IMG/VR virus record: IMGVR_UViG_3300013101_002680
Location: 1-23,426 of that record
Strand: one strand, 5' to 3'
Origin: a virus
DNA: 23,426 bases
A model generated the notes under the pieces. That model saw nothing but the letters and a program-made list of their open reading frames with translations, was not told the origin of the DNA and did not search any database. The translations under genes and the position numbers were made by a program. Each line of letters opens with the position of its first letter. Position 1 is the stretch's first letter. Below are positions 2,505-23,426 of this stretch, piece after piece.

Positions 2505-5207
2505 TTAAAAATCCACAGAATGAAAACTAGGATCGTCTATATCTACTTCTGTGCCCATAAAAGATAACCAATCCTCATCTGACATTACTTTTTCATCTTC
2601 TTTTTCTGCTTTCAAAAATTCTACATTTGCAGGACCTCCTCCAGGCTCTTCATAAGCCATTACTAAAGCATCCCAATAATCAGGTGATCTTCCTAATTCT
2701 TTCTTAATTTCTTCTTTAGGCTGTAAAAGAATTTTACCTGCAGATGTGATCTTATATTTTGTAATCTGTAGATCACCTTTTAAGTTTTCCAATAAATCTG
2801 GTACTTTGCGTTCTAATCTAGCTAATCCTATAAATCCTTCTTCAAATCTTTTTCTTAATGCCCAAGCCATTTCTGCACGGACATTACTAAAACGTTCTTT
2901 ATCTACAACTACCTTTGTTTCAGAATTATTAATAGGAAGCACAGGCAAATCTTGTTCTGCTAACCTATCATAAACACCTGCTCCTAAACCTATTATATCT
3001 ATTTTAATAGTACGAACTACCTTTCGATACTTTCTTTCTAAATAACGAATATATTCAATTGTTTCACCTGCAACCTGCATAGTATCGTTGCCAGTTACAC
3101 GTTTCATCTCTAATGCAGCAGATCCGCATCTTACAAACCAAACCGTAGAATCAAGTCCTGATCTGGCAACATCAAGACCTATTTCTAACGCATCATCATC
3201 TAATTCTCCATCCTTGTCGTATGCATGAATTAAAAATTGGTAAGGAAGCACTACCATTTGCACACTAGGTACAAATTCACCTTTTACAAAAATTCTGTAT
3301 AAAGGATCGTCTTCTCCCCAAGCTTTCCTACGTTTCTCTACCCAATCATACGCGACTAATCCAGGATAGATGTTTCTACCTGCTACAACATTTGGAGATT
3401 CTTCAGCACCAATATGAATAATATTCCAAGTGCCATACTTAGATTTCCTTTCTGGCATACAAATATCTGCTAAAGGACAATCTGATATTGCGGTATTACT
3501 AATAGCTAACCAACGACAATTTTCAGAAGTCATTAAACCTTCCGCAGCTTCCCAAAACATCTTAGGCAAACCACCTGCTTGGTCAAATATAACAAGCTGA
3601 TTAGGAGAATGGTACCCAGTAAACATATCCATGTTTCCTTCTTCGGTACTAAATCCTATTGCAAATTGATCGTCATTTAATTTTAAAGATAACTGTAAGG
3701 GGTCTCCTCCTAATTTAACCTTTGCTTGAGAATGTGCAGTTCTTATTTCTGACCAAAGTAAATCGCGTACTTGACGAGAAGTAGGAGCAGTAGAAATTAC
3801 CTTTGCACCTGGAAAGTTGTATAAAAACCATAAAGCAATACGAGCTGCAAGCCAAGTATTATGTTCTACAAAAGTAGTAAGATACGTATGGTATTTAGGA
3901 ACCGAAATAGCTACTGTTTTTCTTGGACCTATATATTCAATGTCTTTTATTCTGACCCAAATATACTCTTCGGAAGGCAAAGACATTTGTGTCCATCTTC
4001 TTGGAGCTATTAGTTTTCTTCCTCTAGCAACTTTTAAACATTGTTCTACTGCAACTTCTTTTCCATAAATACCTATTACTTTAGAAAATCTTTCCATACT
4101 TTCTAAAGTTTTACAACCCCAACAACACGCAGTTAAAAACTCAGATTTAAAACCTCTTTCTTTGCCACTAAAAGTTCTACAAGCTTTAAAACCCCGAATA
4201 CCTAATCTAAGCATTGCAAGCTCTACATCTTCTATTAATTCTTTAGAAGCACTTGTTATAGCAATTTCTGTACTTCTTCTTACTTTCCCTTGTTTATTGA
4301 TTTTTATACTAGAAGATGCCCATCCATCACAAGCAAAATACCTATTAAGAAATAAAGCCAATTGCGAATTAGGTAAAGTCCATACCCAATCAGGAAAAGA
4401 TTTAACTTTTGCAGTTTTACCTAAAAGCTTCCATTCCCTTACTAAATTTAAAATTGGATTATTTGAAGTACCTCCTTTTTTAACATGTTTTGGACCTGTA
4501 ACTCTAAAAGTTAAAGGATCTCCTTTCATAGGAACACAAATGCCACCTAATCTTTCTACAACTTCTACAAATTCTTGTTTTGCAGGACCTTCTTGTTGAG
4601 TAAAAGTTACTCCTCCTGTAGTGCCTCCATCTCCTATCAAATAACCAGCTAATTTTACTTCATCGTCACTTTTTGGAATCTGACCTTCAATTTTTAAAAT
4701 TTTAGGTAAAAGAACAGCATCTCCTATTTTTAAATTTTCTATCTTTCTAAAACCTGGATCTGATAGTCTCGTAGTAGCTTTATTTTTTGTAAGAGTTGCT
4801 GCATACAAAGGATGGTTTCCAGTTCTAGTAACTCTGCTTCCACCTGCGGCAGTGACTTGGTATACAGGTTTAACTCCATTATCAGTAGCCCAAGCTAATG
4901 AAGGTACTTGCTTTCCTGTCTTTTCATCAAATGCAATTATACCAAACTGTGTACCTATCAATGTGTCCGCTAACACCACACGCCCATCAGATAAAGGTAC
5001 TTTCTCGTTATAAATTAAACATTTTCCTACACCAAAAGATGCAGGAACAGCCGTCCTTTCATGATCTACTATAGATTGACAAATATCTTCCTGCTTGGAC
5101 CAAAGATCCCCGCCTAAAACTTCTCTAATCCACCAAGCAGGATTTTTTTGAGCTTTTTGAATGATGGTTCCACGCCAATCAGAACCTTTTATAGATATTC
5201 TACTCAT
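2505..5207 (-). CDS. terL: Terminase large subunit (TerL) precursor carrying an in-frame intein
   Basis: The precursor is 900 residues. Removing residues 63-450 leaves a 512-residue terminase, a normal TerL length. The ATPase half has a P-loop ASFGVGK/T completed only after splicing (residues 56-62 plus T451), a Walker B region LVIFDQAGG with D542, and a coupling motif AISNT near 568-572. The nuclease half is RNase H-like with acidic residues D679 (GLDVARSG), D737 (IKIDIIG) and D843/D846 (SPDYWDAL). TerL is the motor that pumps DNA through the portal and the nuclease that cuts concatemers. It overlaps the small terminase gene by four bases (ATGA) and is followed by the portal gene. One oddity is DQA where most relatives have DEA, so the position of the catalytic glutamate is filled by Gln543. 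Confidence 0.95.
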   Translation of the reverse strand: MSRISIKGSDWRGTIIQKAQKNPAWWIREVLGGDLWSKQEDICQSIVDHERTAVPASFGVGKCLIYNEKVPLSDGRVVLADTLIGTQFGIIAFDEKTGKQVPSLAWATDNGVKPVYQVTAAGGSRVTRTGNHPLYAATLTKNKATTRLSDPGFRKIENLKIGDAVLLPKILKIEGQIPKSDDEVKLAGYLIGDGGTTGGVTFTQQEGPAKQEFVEVVERLGGICVPMKGDPLTFRVTGPKHVKKGGTSNNPILNLVREWKLLGKTAKVKSFPDWVWTLPNSQLALFLNRYFACDGWASSSIKINKQGKVRRSTEIAITSASKELIEDVELAMLRLGIRGFKACRTFSGKERGFKSEFLTACCWGCKTLESMERFSKVIGIYGKEVAVEQCLKVARGRKLIAPRRWTQMSLPSEEYIWVRIKDIEYIGPRKTVAISVPKYHTYLTTFVEHNTWLAARIALWFLYNFPGAKVISTAPTSRQVRDLLWSEIRTAHSQAKVKLGGDPLQLSLKLNDDQFAIGFSTEEGNMDMFTGYHSPNQLVIFDQAGGLPKMFWEAAEGLMTSENCRWLAISNTAISDCPLADICMPERKSKYGTWNIIHIGAEESPNVVAGRNIYPGLVAYDWVEKRRKAWGEDDPLYRIFVKGEFVPSVQMVVLPYQFLIHAYDKDGELDDDALEIGLDVARSGLDSTVWFVRCGSAALEMKRVTGNDTMQVAGETIEYIRYLERKYRKVVRTIKIDIIGLGAGVYDRLAEQDLPVLPINNSETKVVVDKERFSNVRAEMAWALRKRFEEGFIGLARLERKVPDLLENLKGDLQITKYKITSAGKILLQPKEEIKKELGRSPDYWDALVMAYEEPGGGPANVEFLKAEKEDEKVMSDEDWLSFMGTEVDIDDPSFHSVDF
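3858..5021 (-). mobile_element. Intein with LAGLIDADG homing endonuclease, inserted in the TerL Walker A loop
   Basis: 388 residues (63-450 of the precursor). It starts with Cys63 right after GVGK and ends with Glu-His-Asn (448-450), followed by Thr451 as the first C-extein residue. Block A is CLIYNEKVPLSDG. Block B holds the TxxH motif TGNH (129-132). Block F/G is VAISVPKYHTY...VEHN, with the penultimate His and terminal Asn needed for Asn cyclisation. The two LAGLIDADG helices are LAGYLIGDGG (186-195, acid D193) and LALFLNRYFACDGW (283-296, acid D294). All splicing and nuclease residues I can check are present, so the element looks active for protein splicing and probably for homing into intein-free alleles. 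Insertion between the P-loop Lys and Thr/Ser puts it at the most conserved site of the gene, a common intein habit. Confidence 0.94.
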
Positions 5208-6722: not shown

Positions 6723-7148
6723 TTATTTTTTAGATTTAAATTCTAATTTAAGCATTTCTAAATGATTTAAGTGAATTTTTATAACTTCCCCTATTTCACT
6801 TACAACAGAGTTCATAAATTTTCCTTTACTGCCAGGTTTAAAATAACCACCTTTAGGGTCAAACACAGATTGCAATTCTTCTATTAAAAAATTAACTTCT
6901 CCACCTTTTCTAAAAACAGCAGAAATAATTCTTGTTAAAGATACAATCCATTGAAAATGTTCCATGTTTTTAGAATTAATAAATATTTCAAAAGGTCTTC
7001 TATTTTCAAACTCTGTACCTTCATTTAATACAATATCATTTATTGTAATGTACATCGCATGATCATCCATGGGAGTTGAAATTTTATAAGTTCTTCCATT
7101 CAAAATTTCAGGACGTTGAATCCCTTCATTCATTCTAATTTTTTCCAT
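6723..7148 (-). CDS. NrdJb-like protein (TSCPD-associated region of class II ribonucleotide reductase)
   Basis: 141 residues. The order RPEILNGRTYKI, AMYITINDIV, RRPFEIFINSKNMEHFQW, TRIISAVFRKGGEV, EELQSVFDPKGGYF and EIGEVIKIHL closely follows the conserved core of the C-terminal part of B12-dependent ribonucleotide reductase, which in split enzymes is a separate subunit called NrdJb. That enzyme makes deoxyribonucleotides. No large reductase subunit is visible in this window, and the protein has no cysteine, so it lacks the zinc-ribbon tail. It overlaps the thymidylate kinase gene by 14 bases and has AAGGA six bases before its ATG. A role with a host or distant phage NrdJ subunit is inferred. 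Confidence 0.82.
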   Translation of the reverse strand: MEKIRMNEGIQRPEILNGRTYKISTPMDDHAMYITINDIVLNEGTEFENRRPFEIFINSKNMEHFQWIVSLTRIISAVFRKGGEVNFLIEELQSVFDPKGGYFKPGSKGKFMNSVVSEIGEVIKIHLNHLEMLKLEFKSKK

Positions 7149-17153: not shown

Positions 17154-17383
17154 AAACATACACTATTAAAGTGACATACTTTAAACAAAGTGGTAAATTT
17201 TATGCTGAGGGAGAATACGAAACATCTCTTTCCTATATGTTTGAGGTGTTTAGAGAATTTGAAGAAATGTTAAAAAAAGGAATAAGACCCGGACTTGTAA
17301 ATGGGCATAGTAACTTTATTGCTGTACTAGATTGTGAAGGACATCCTAAAGGTTACCCTGCAGCATTTGTAGGAAAAGCGTAA
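17150..17383 (+). CDS. Unknown 77-residue protein
   Basis: I choose the ATG at 17150 (MKTYTIKVTYFKQSGKFYAE), because it forms the usual ATGA overlap with the previous gene. A longer frame from 17102 would cut into the membrane gene. The product is alpha/beta in appearance, with GHPKGYPAAFVGKA at the end. Function not recognised. Confidence 0.76.
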   Translation: MKTYTIKVTYFKQSGKFYAEGEYETSLSYMFEVFREFEEMLKKGIRPGLVNGHSNFIAVLDCEGHPKGYPAAFVGKA

Positions 17384-21323: not shown

Positions 21324-21559
21324 GTCTTTTTAAAACTTTACGAGGTTTTGAGCATTTTGGTACACAATCTTCTTTTGAAGAATGGCAATTAAAATATCCT
21401 GACTATGTTATAGATTTAATTCAACCTATGAAGAATAAAGTTATTTTTTCTAAATATTCTACAAGTAGGTGTAATGCAGGTTACAATGGAATCGAGCCCG
21501 TATACGGCATTTTCATAACATATTCTTATCTTTACAAAATAGAAAAAAATGAAATTTAA
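21320..21559 (+). CDS. Unknown 79-residue protein
   Basis: Starts by a four-base overlap with the membrane gene. It has aromatic-rich segments (FEHFGTQSSFEEWQLKYPDY; YGIFITYSYLYKIE). No motif recognised. It overlaps the next gene by 11 bases. Confidence 0.7.
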   Translation: MSLFKTLRGFEHFGTQSSFEEWQLKYPDYVIDLIQPMKNKVIFSKYSTSRCNAGYNGIEPVYGIFITYSYLYKIEKNEI

Positions 21560-21779
21560 ATCTGGCAGGACAGGAATACCTTGGGAAATTGTCCTAGAAG
21601 AATCTGGTACCTATCTTTCTACCTATTACACATTTTTAGAAAAACTTTCTAAACCAACATGTATATGTAAAATATGGAAAAATAAAATTTATATAGCATG
21701 GAAATCAGACCATTTAAAACCTTGTGCAAACCGAGCACGTAAACTCCGTAACTTACAAAACAGACTACATAGAAATTAA
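21549..21779 (+). CDS. Unknown 76-residue basic protein
   Basis: Three Cys (CICKIW; KPCANRA) and a basic C-terminus (NRARKLRNLQNRLHRN) suggest nucleic-acid binding, but no family is recognised. It ends two bases before the ribosome-binding site of the next gene. Confidence 0.7.
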   Translation: MKFKSGRTGIPWEIVLEESGTYLSTYYTFLEKLSKPTCICKIWKNKIYIAWKSDHLKPCANRARKLRNLQNRLHRN

Positions 21780-21790
21780 AGGAGCTCACA

Positions 21791-21910
21791 ATGAAATGTA
21801 ATGAATGTAAATCAGGTACCTTTATACCTAGATATCGTAAAAACAAAGCACCAAAATTTTATTGCTCAAAATGTGGCAAACGTCATCATCCTAAAGTAAA
21901 AAAGACATGA
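21791..21910 (+). CDS. 39-residue zinc-ribbon micro-protein
   Basis: It has two CxxC pairs: CNEC (residues 3-6) and CSKC (near 25-28), with basic residues around them (RYRKNKAPKFY; GKRHHPKVKK). This is a minimal zinc ribbon. AAAGGAG stands six bases before the ATG, one of the best ribosome-binding sites in the window, and its stop overlaps the next ATG by four bases, so I regard it as a real gene. Confidence 0.8.
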   Translation: MKCNECKSGTFIPRYRKNKAPKFYCSKCGKRHHPKVKKT

Positions 21911-22104
21911 TTACAATTCAATCAGCAGGTGTGCTTAGATGTTGTCTAGCATCTATAGGTGGAACTCGTGATGGATATGGAACATGGAAAGTTTTTATAA
22001 AGCCTAAAGAAAGAGACACGGACATTTGTGAGTACTGTGGACGAGTATTTGTATTGCACGGTACAAAATGGGAAGCTACAGAAAAATACAGGCCAAAAAA
22101 ATGA
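21907..22104 (+). CDS. 65-residue zinc-binding protein
   Basis: CC near residues 12-13 and CEYC (near 41-44) form a likely metal site. The end (FVLHGTKWEATEKYRPKK) is basic. Linked by four-base overlaps to the 39-residue gene before and the 68-residue gene after. Not recognised. Confidence 0.75.
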   Translation: MITIQSAGVLRCCLASIGGTRDGYGTWKVFIKPKERDTDICEYCGRVFVLHGTKWEATEKYRPKK

Positions 22105-22307
22105 CTGGTGCATACTTACGTGTAAAAAGAGATGGCAAATGGAAATCTGTCGAAGTGGAATACCTTACGGATAATGAAAGGTCTTTACTTTTACAAAATC
22201 GTAGTGCCAAAGAATTGTTCAATTGGATTGACGTACTTTGCACAACGCTCTTAGGAGCGGAAGAAGAAATCCGTCATTTAGAGGATTCTATTTTTAATGA
22301 ACATTAA
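22101..22307 (+). CDS. Unknown 68-residue protein
   Basis: I choose the ATG at 22101 because of the ATGA overlap; a frame from 22068 would cut far into the previous gene. It reads GAYLRVKRDGKWKSVEVEYL, then TDNERS and an acidic helix ending in DSIFNEH. The WKSVEVEYLT element is a common short phage-protein pattern of unknown function. Confidence 0.75.
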   Translation: MTGAYLRVKRDGKWKSVEVEYLTDNERSLLLQNRSAKELFNWIDVLCTTLLGAEEEIRHLEDSIFNEH

Positions 22308-22479
22308 AGAAATCAAACAAGCAAAGATTTTATTGACTCAAGAAATCGGAGATGCAATTTATACCTTTGAAACAAATACCACATGTAAAGTTCAAGAAAT
22401 AGAACTTGTCCACAGAGAACGAATGGGACGAGATGAAATTTCTATAACTACACATGTTATTGTAAAAGTAAAGGTGTGA
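22297..22479 (+). CDS. Unknown 60-residue protein
   Basis: It has an alpha-beta-beta appearance (ILLTQEIGDAIYTFETNTTC; VQEIELVHRE; ISITTHVIVKVKV), like many small phage proteins of unknown function. It overlaps the previous gene by 11 bases. Its stop lies inside the left arm of a long inverted repeat. Confidence 0.74.
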   Translation: MNIKEIKQAKILLTQEIGDAIYTFETNTTCKVQEIELVHRERMGRDEISITTHVIVKVKV

Positions 22480-22529
22480 ATTGATTCTAAACCAAAAAGA
22501 ATCTGAAACTAGAATCAATTCACATACCT
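22472..22529 (+). repeat. Long inverted repeat across a gene junction
   Basis: GTGAATTGATTCTA (22476-22489) pairs perfectly with TAGAATCAATTCAC (22510-22523) across a 20-base loop. After a two-base AT bulge, AGGT (22472-22475) pairs with ACCT (22526-22529). That gives 18 base pairs in all. The left arm contains the stop of the preceding gene and the right arm lies in the coding frame of the next. No T run follows, so it is not a simple terminator. Confidence 0.75.
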
Positions 22530-22652
22530 ACAGGTATAACTGTTGTAGTGGATTTTAACTACAGTAGATCTTTTCATAAACAAAAGGAAGCTGCCTTAAA
22601 AATCTTAAAATCTAAACTTTGGATGAAGCAAAATTTACAATTAGGAGATTAG
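22481..22652 (+). pseudogene. Small gene without a usable start (broken 5' end)
   Basis: The frame open from 22491 to the TAG at 22650 reads NLKLESIHIPTGITVVVDFN, then YSRSFHKQKEAALKILKSKL and WMKQNLQLGD. The IPTGITVVVDFNYS block looks like a genuine short phage protein. There is no ATG, GTG or TTG at its start in that frame. A TTG at 22481, four bases after AAGGTG, is one base out of frame. The right arm of the inverted repeat covers this start. Either one base is wrong here or the start was destroyed by the repeat. Confidence 0.5.
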
Positions 22653-22964
22653 TTATCTTTACAAGACGATTATCAAGAAGCAATACAACTAACAGATGCA
22701 CAAAATAAGGCATTTAATAAACTTATACGAGCAATAAAAGATTGTAAAAAAACCAAGGTGTACTTTTACCAAAATATGGAACATTTAGGTGCTCTAAATG
22801 GAAATAACGTATTATCAATAGGCACTACCAGTGATCCTGAACTTAAGAATTATGATTCTAATTCTCCTAGTTGCTTACAATATAAAAGTTACCCAAACAT
22901 ACAAACTGCTTGTTCATTTGCAGATGATAATCATTTTATCGTATTACATTCTAAGAAAACTTGA
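22653..22964 (+). CDS. Unknown protein, start codon abnormal
   Basis: Coding-like sequence continues directly after the TAG in the same frame: SLQDDYQEAIQLTDAQNKAF, then NKLIRAIKDCKKTKVYFYQN and MEHLGALNGNNVLSIGTTSD, to a TGA at 22962 (about 103 residues). AGGAG (22643-22647) sits at the right distance for a start at codon 22653, but that codon is TTA. A one-base change would make a TTG start. GTG at 22758 is a poorer in-frame option because it discards 35 plausible residues. Function not recognised. Confidence 0.55.
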   Translation, partial: LSLQDDYQEAIQLTDAQNKAFNKLIRAIKDCKKTKVYFYQNMEHLGALNGNNVLSIGTTSDPELKNYDSNSPSCLQYKSYPNIQTACSFADDNHFIVLHSKKT

Positions 22965-22989
22965 TTTTAAAAAGATTCTATTTTACACT
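22961..22989 (+). promoter_or_regulatory. Candidate promoter upstream of the structured RNA
   Basis: -35 TTGATT (22961-22966), a 17-base spacer and -10 TACACT (22984-22989), each matching four of six consensus bases. It would start an RNA near 22996 that runs into the terminator at 23117. Confidence 0.35.
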
Positions 22990-23039
22990 GGTATACATGT
23001 TGTGTCCTTCTTAGCGTCGAATTGACCTGATGCACCATA

Positions 23040-23117
23040 GGGACGAGAACTGAGATTAAGATCTCTCTAAAATGCTTTTCCTCCTCTCATTTTAGATTAT
23101 TTTCTCGTCCCTTTTTT
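23040..23117 (+). ncRNA. Three-stem structured RNA with intrinsic terminator and CCUCCU loop
   Basis: The outer stem GGGACGAGAA (23040-23049) pairs with TTCTCGTCCC (23102-23111) and is followed by six T (23112-23117), an intrinsic terminator. Inside it are two further stems. GAGAT (23052-23056) pairs with ATCTC (23061-23065) with a TAAG loop. TCTAAAATG (23066-23074) pairs with CATTTTAGA (23088-23096) with a 13-base loop CTTTTCCTCCTCT. The stems are contiguous, giving a three-way junction. The loop carries CCTCCT, the same bases as the 16S rRNA anti-Shine-Dalgarno. A plain terminator needs none of this, so a small regulatory RNA is the better reading. No ORF lies in 22965-23183. Confidence 0.68.
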
Positions 23118-23127
23118 ATTGCACACA

Positions 23128-23150
23128 TCTTAGGTATATATTACATATAG
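23128..23150 (+). promoter_or_regulatory. Candidate promoter, copy 3 of the repeated AT-rich motif
   Basis: ATCTTAGGTATATATTACAT followed by ATAG, eleven bases after the terminator T run and 60 bases before the next gene. Its first 11 bases are identical to those at 16877. The position after a terminator and before a new unit fits a promoter. Confidence 0.5.
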
Positions 23151-23209
23151 CTACACATCTATAAAGGTTCATAAATACAGAAAATGTTTTCATTTTTGGA
23201 CCTTAAGAA

Positions 23210-23388
23210 ATGAAATTATCTATAGAAGTAGTCTTTGGAATTTTCTTTGGAATGTTATTTGGTGCAGTACTACACAATGGACAAATAATGCATTTGTCGA
23301 TCGAATACTTGAACCTTGTGAAAAATCTTTGCCTAGAGATCAATCTTGTAAGCTTGTAGCTATTCCTAAAAATAAGGAAAATAATTAA
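23210..23388 (+). pseudogene. Small single-pass membrane protein gene with a -1 frame break
   Basis: Frame 0 from the ATG at 23210 encodes a glycine-rich membrane helix, KLSIEVVFGIFFGMLFGAVL, then runs into unlikely sequence. The -1 frame from about 23280 reads NNAFVDRILEPCEKSLPRDQ then SCKLVAIPKNKENN, to a TAA at 23386 that overlaps the next ATG (TAATG). The two-Cys CEKSLPRDQSC segment after an N-terminal membrane helix resembles a recurring small phage envelope protein. One missing base, for example in the AAA at 23283-23285, would join them into 59 residues. Confidence 0.58.
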
Positions 23389-23426
23389 TGAAATTTTTAC
23401 CATTGTCATTATTGATATTCAAAGCA
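23388..23426 (+). CDS. Start of a further gene, cut by the window end
   Basis: ATG at 23388 in a TAATG overlap with the preceding gene, with AAGGA nine bases upstream. The thirteen visible residues MKFLPLSLLIFKA look like the start of a signal peptide or membrane helix. Nothing more can be said. Confidence 0.55.
   Translation, partial: MKFLPLSLLIFKA

Follow-up and report, generated by a model that had tools for sequence, protein, structure and literature searches.

The DNA analysed here, a 23,426-bp virus fragment (the window, i.e., the whole record), carries at 23039-23117 on the + strand a branched RNA structure that is probably a variant form of intrinsic (Rho-independent) terminator, ending the transcript of a rightward run of small genes. 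The stems, the tail, and the position can be read directly from the DNA, and from these we infer termination itself. An earlier note had taken the outer stem for an intrinsic terminator, a reading that the stem, the T run, and the position support well. The three perfect stems it described, of 10, 5, and 9 bp, are all present, but the outer one has 11 bp rather than 10. The features of the region, all on the + strand, are the following.

22653..22964, +: last upstream open frame, without an ATG, related to phrog_2821 (unknown function; E 3.2e-10)
22961..22989, +: weak sigma-70-like motif TTGATT-17-TACACT (8/12 in sequence, below the scan threshold)
23004..23044, +: possible competing helix between GTCCTT (23004-23009) and AGGGAC (23039-23044), around a 6-bp hairpin; statistically unremarkable
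23039-23049 and 23102-23112, +: arms of the perfect 11-bp outer stem (pair probabilities 0.70-1.0)
23052..23065, +: inner hairpin A, 5 bp, loop UAAG (sequence, folding, pair probabilities)
23066..23096, +: inner hairpin B, 9 bp, 13-nt pyrimidine-rich loop CUUUUCCUCCUCU (sequence, folding, pair probabilities)
23113..23117, +: remainder of the U-tract, predicted 3' end of the transcript (sequence)

Architecture and predicted stability

The outer arms, AGGGACGAGAA (23039-23049) and TTCTCGTCCCT (23102-23112), are 100% complementary and include six G-C pairs. The T run occupies 23112-23117, its first T pairing within the outer stem, and a stable, G-C-containing stem of 11 bp thus stands directly before a U-tract. 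Enclosed by it are hairpin A, with arms GAGAT (23052-23056) and ATCTC (23061-23065) around the loop TAAG (as DNA), and hairpin B, with arms TCTAAAATG (23066-23074) and CATTTTAGA (23088-23096) around a loop that reads CTTTTCCTCCTCT as DNA. The hexamer CCUCCU lies at 23080-23085, inside the 13-base loop of the longest inner stem, just as had been described. It is not a rare motif here, since CCTCCT occurs 16 times in the record versus 6.8 expected.

A 101-nt stretch covering the structure has an MFE of -29.1 kcal/mol, compared with -12.9 +/- 2.55 for dinucleotide shuffles (z -6.35), and none of the 200 shuffles folded as well. Ensemble prediction gave pairing of 0.7-1.0 in the stems and an unpaired probability of 1.0 for CCTCCT. 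A coarse scan in 90-nt windows placed it among the most structured sites of the 23.4-kb record but not first, as 22381-22560 and about 511-600 have similar or lower z.

The sequence GGGACGAG from the outer 5' arm matches the window three times versus 0.09 expected; two matches are the stem's own arms, and the third (22425-22432, inside an upstream small ORF) is probably a coincidence.

Gene context and proposed termination

The leftward genes of the fragment encode portal, terminase (intein-bearing), primase, and QueD/QueE-like proteins, among others, and a run of small genes points rightward (about 16.95-22.96 kb). The structure lies downstream of this run in a 245-nt gap, on the same strand and outside coding sequence: it starts 74 nt past the last rightward frame (22653-22964), whose transcript the terminator presumably ends, and finishes ~95 nt ahead of the next ATG (23210, a small frame). 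It is crossed by no ORF of 50 aa or longer, which bears out the coding-free location claimed for it.

Frames are broken in genes on both sides of the structure, and the nearby contig end may hold errors. Downstream, a small gene at 23207-23388 is seemingly split over two frames, MKLSIEVVFGIFFGMLFGAVLHNGQ and FVDRILEPCEKSLPRDQSCKLVAIPKNKENN; taken with the broken upstream frames, the split points to decay or indel errors close to the end of the contig. Upstream, 22472-22652 holds in two frames the remains of a gene for an RF-1-domain (peptide chain release factor-like) protein (phrog_20323, E 0.0014), apparently without its start and GGQ region. A perfect 15-bp inverted repeat, TGTGAATTGATTCTA and TAGAATCAATTCACA with a 20-nt gap, spans 22475-22524. 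Its right arm falls in the release factor-like coding sequence and its left arm at the place expected for the upstream portion of that gene; the repeat possibly arose as an artefact of template switching or assembly. At the other end of the fragment, the gene for the terminase large subunit (2505-5207) has an apparent LAGLIDADG intein (Pfam PF14528), with Intein_splicing below its cut-off.

Like intrinsic terminators, the structure has a perfect, G-C-containing stem followed by a U-tract and comes after a gene run. It differs in its loop, which is about 3-10 nt in typical terminators and here is a 52-nt interior holding two hairpins. Because this interior lies outside the loop definition of 3-8 nt in our terminator scan, from whose list the structure is absent, we regard it as a branched variant and not as a canonical member, and one that should work like an intrinsic terminator. 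The rightward transcript of the small genes (about 16.95-22.96 kb) would then end before the next small genes (~23.2 kb). RNA polymerase would make the two inner hairpins first, the distant 3' arm would close the 11-bp outer stem beside the U-tract, and the transcript would be released near 23117; the compact branched fold might also give the upstream mRNA a stable 3' end. For the CCUCCU loop, the simplest reading is that of an incidental pyrimidine-rich loop. If ordinary in this way, the structure is one more phage terminator, of mild interest for being branched and unusually stable.

We compared it with other sites by scanning the window plus 42 virus loci (645 kb in all, mostly from phages) for T-runs that follow a stem with seven or more pairs, three or more of them G-C. 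This yielded 182 candidates, 44 of them enclosing at least two hairpins, and many are probably chance occurrences inside coding sequence. No other branched candidate in the 645 kb scanned combines 11 outer pairs with six G-C. An intergenic structure at locus L012 (z -4.68) has a similar layout, in which U6 follows an outer stem with another long stem inside it, so this phage is not alone in having branched or extended terminators. The covariance model matches L012 with E 0.16, a likeness in layout that does not establish homology.

Search for relatives

Relatives of the region were found in none of the viral, phage, plasmid, or bacterial-genome collections. Pattern searches of viral contigs with the outer stem and with hairpin B returned nothing, and blastn against phages and plasmids gave chance-level pieces only. 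A single-sequence covariance model, run over the 645 kb, recovered only the structure itself below E 0.1; on a further set of 30 whole virus records it came back empty, in a run without a positive control. Searches of viral contigs with six proteins retrieved relatives solely of the portal/terminase end (among them L016, 99.6% identical over 2.6 kb), the nucleotidyltransferase, and QueE, none of which was shown to carry the structure region.

Regulatory alternatives

The earlier note had proposed that the exposed loop blocks AGGAGG-type sites. In the form considered here, the structure belongs to a phage small RNA of ~75-120 nt, either independent or derived from a 3'-UTR, and pairing of its CUUUUCCUCCUCU loop with purine-rich RBSs (AGGAAAA/AGGAGG type) would keep host or phage mRNAs from being translated. 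If the loop were functional, this would be a phage RNA with broad action on translation initiation. As a type of mechanism this is not far-fetched, since phage RNAs that act at RBS regions exist, namely c4 of P1/P7 and DicF of the Qin prophage (PMC12197685, a review). The antisense RNA c4 is likewise a phage RNA with loops thought to be complementary to an RBS region, but its complementarity is defined around the ant RBS, whereas here no specific target emerges and Rfam has no match. DicF is similarly a small phage-derived, terminator-like RNA that pairs with mRNA to block translation; here, in contrast, we have no evidence of a processed or separate transcript or of a target.

The loop is fully exposed in the predicted ensemble, and the phage genes use Shine-Dalgarno-type starts (anti-SD duplex energy of about -3.3 kcal/mol at the starts versus about -1.9 further upstream). 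Three RBS windows contain a 7-mer complementary to the loop (AGGAAAA ahead of the gene start at 7148(-), AGGAAAAG ahead of 17383(+), and AGGAAAA ahead of the gene at about 23389(+)), and the best loop duplex, -13.4 kcal/mol, is at 17383. The loop complement shares 6-mers with 8 of 48 RBS windows versus 2.3 expected from random windows. However, shuffled loops of the same bases do equally well: they reach a mean of 5.1 for 6-mers (p 0.20), with p 0.17 for 7-mers, p 0.07 for 5-mers, and p 0.22 for duplex energies. The RBS enrichment is what any pyrimidine-rich loop gives. Seed complementarity to RBSs stays at chance level among the phage targets, and target prediction with the loop sequence, as had been proposed, was no better than shuffled loops on phage RBS regions (p 0.07-0.22). 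AGGAGG is absent from all start regions checked in the window, an Rfam search returned no family at or above the gathering cut-off, a tRNA/tmRNA search of the region gave nothing, and relatives were not found.

Nor did the promoters claimed for such an RNA materialise. The one said to lie 50-80 nt upstream probably corresponds to TTGATT-17-TACACT at 22961..22989, which at 8/12 is under threshold, and the separate motif said to follow the structure was not found in the sigma-70 scan. That scan of 21500-23426 gave two sites, both on the - strand and fewer than in shuffles (9.8); no + strand site of at least 9/12 occurs nearby, a statement about the sigma-70 consensus, outside which phage-specific promoters fall. 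We consider a small RNA of this kind unlikely, and the regulatory claim, which rests on one 6-base motif and passed none of the tests run, is not supported. A more specific version, in which the RNA imitates the 16S rRNA 3' end with CCUCCU in a protected loop and titrates or blocks RBSs during infection, is highly improbable. Conditional termination is another way in which the structure could regulate: pairing of GTCCTT (23004-23009) with the 5' arm of the terminator would delay or prevent termination and so control the genes after 23.2 kb. In folds of the growing transcript, this upstream helix does retain the 5' arm until synthesis has covered the 3' arm (~23108), but shuffles fold as well as the upstream region (z -0.55), a random upstream segment does equally well in 7% of cases (p 0.07), and the full terminator fold is favoured by a wide margin. 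With no leader peptide or known ligand motif seen either, we judge attenuation very unlikely.

Palindromes with similar arms

The outer-arm pattern occurs at 16 places in bacterial genomes, and in six Flavobacterium genomes GGGACGAGAA...TTCTCGTCCC lies within palindromes flanked by GTCATTTCGA or close variants. This would fit capture by the phage of a mobile, REP/REPIN-like palindrome, which we nevertheless hold to be extremely improbable: only one base is shared beyond the arms used for the search, the flanks and the interior are different, a U-tract is missing from the Flavobacterium elements, and by our own estimate about a dozen chance matches are expected for such a pattern in 257 Gb. Flanks of the GTCATTTCGA type are not present on both sides of the phage structure. 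With no likeness beyond the searched arms, we rejected the Flavobacterium palindromes as homologues.

A T-box-like terminator was considered for CTCGTCCCTTTTTT, which is reminiscent of T-box leaders, and was rejected as well; the arm order is opposite and Rfam has no match.

All six Flavobacterium genomes (L044, L046, L049, L053, L055, and L058) carry common palindromes of the form GTCATTTCGAGGGACGAGAAATC...GATTTCTCGTCCCTCGAAATGAC with a variable interior, REP/REPIN-like in character, and those with GTCATTTCGA-type flanks are probably REP-like elements.
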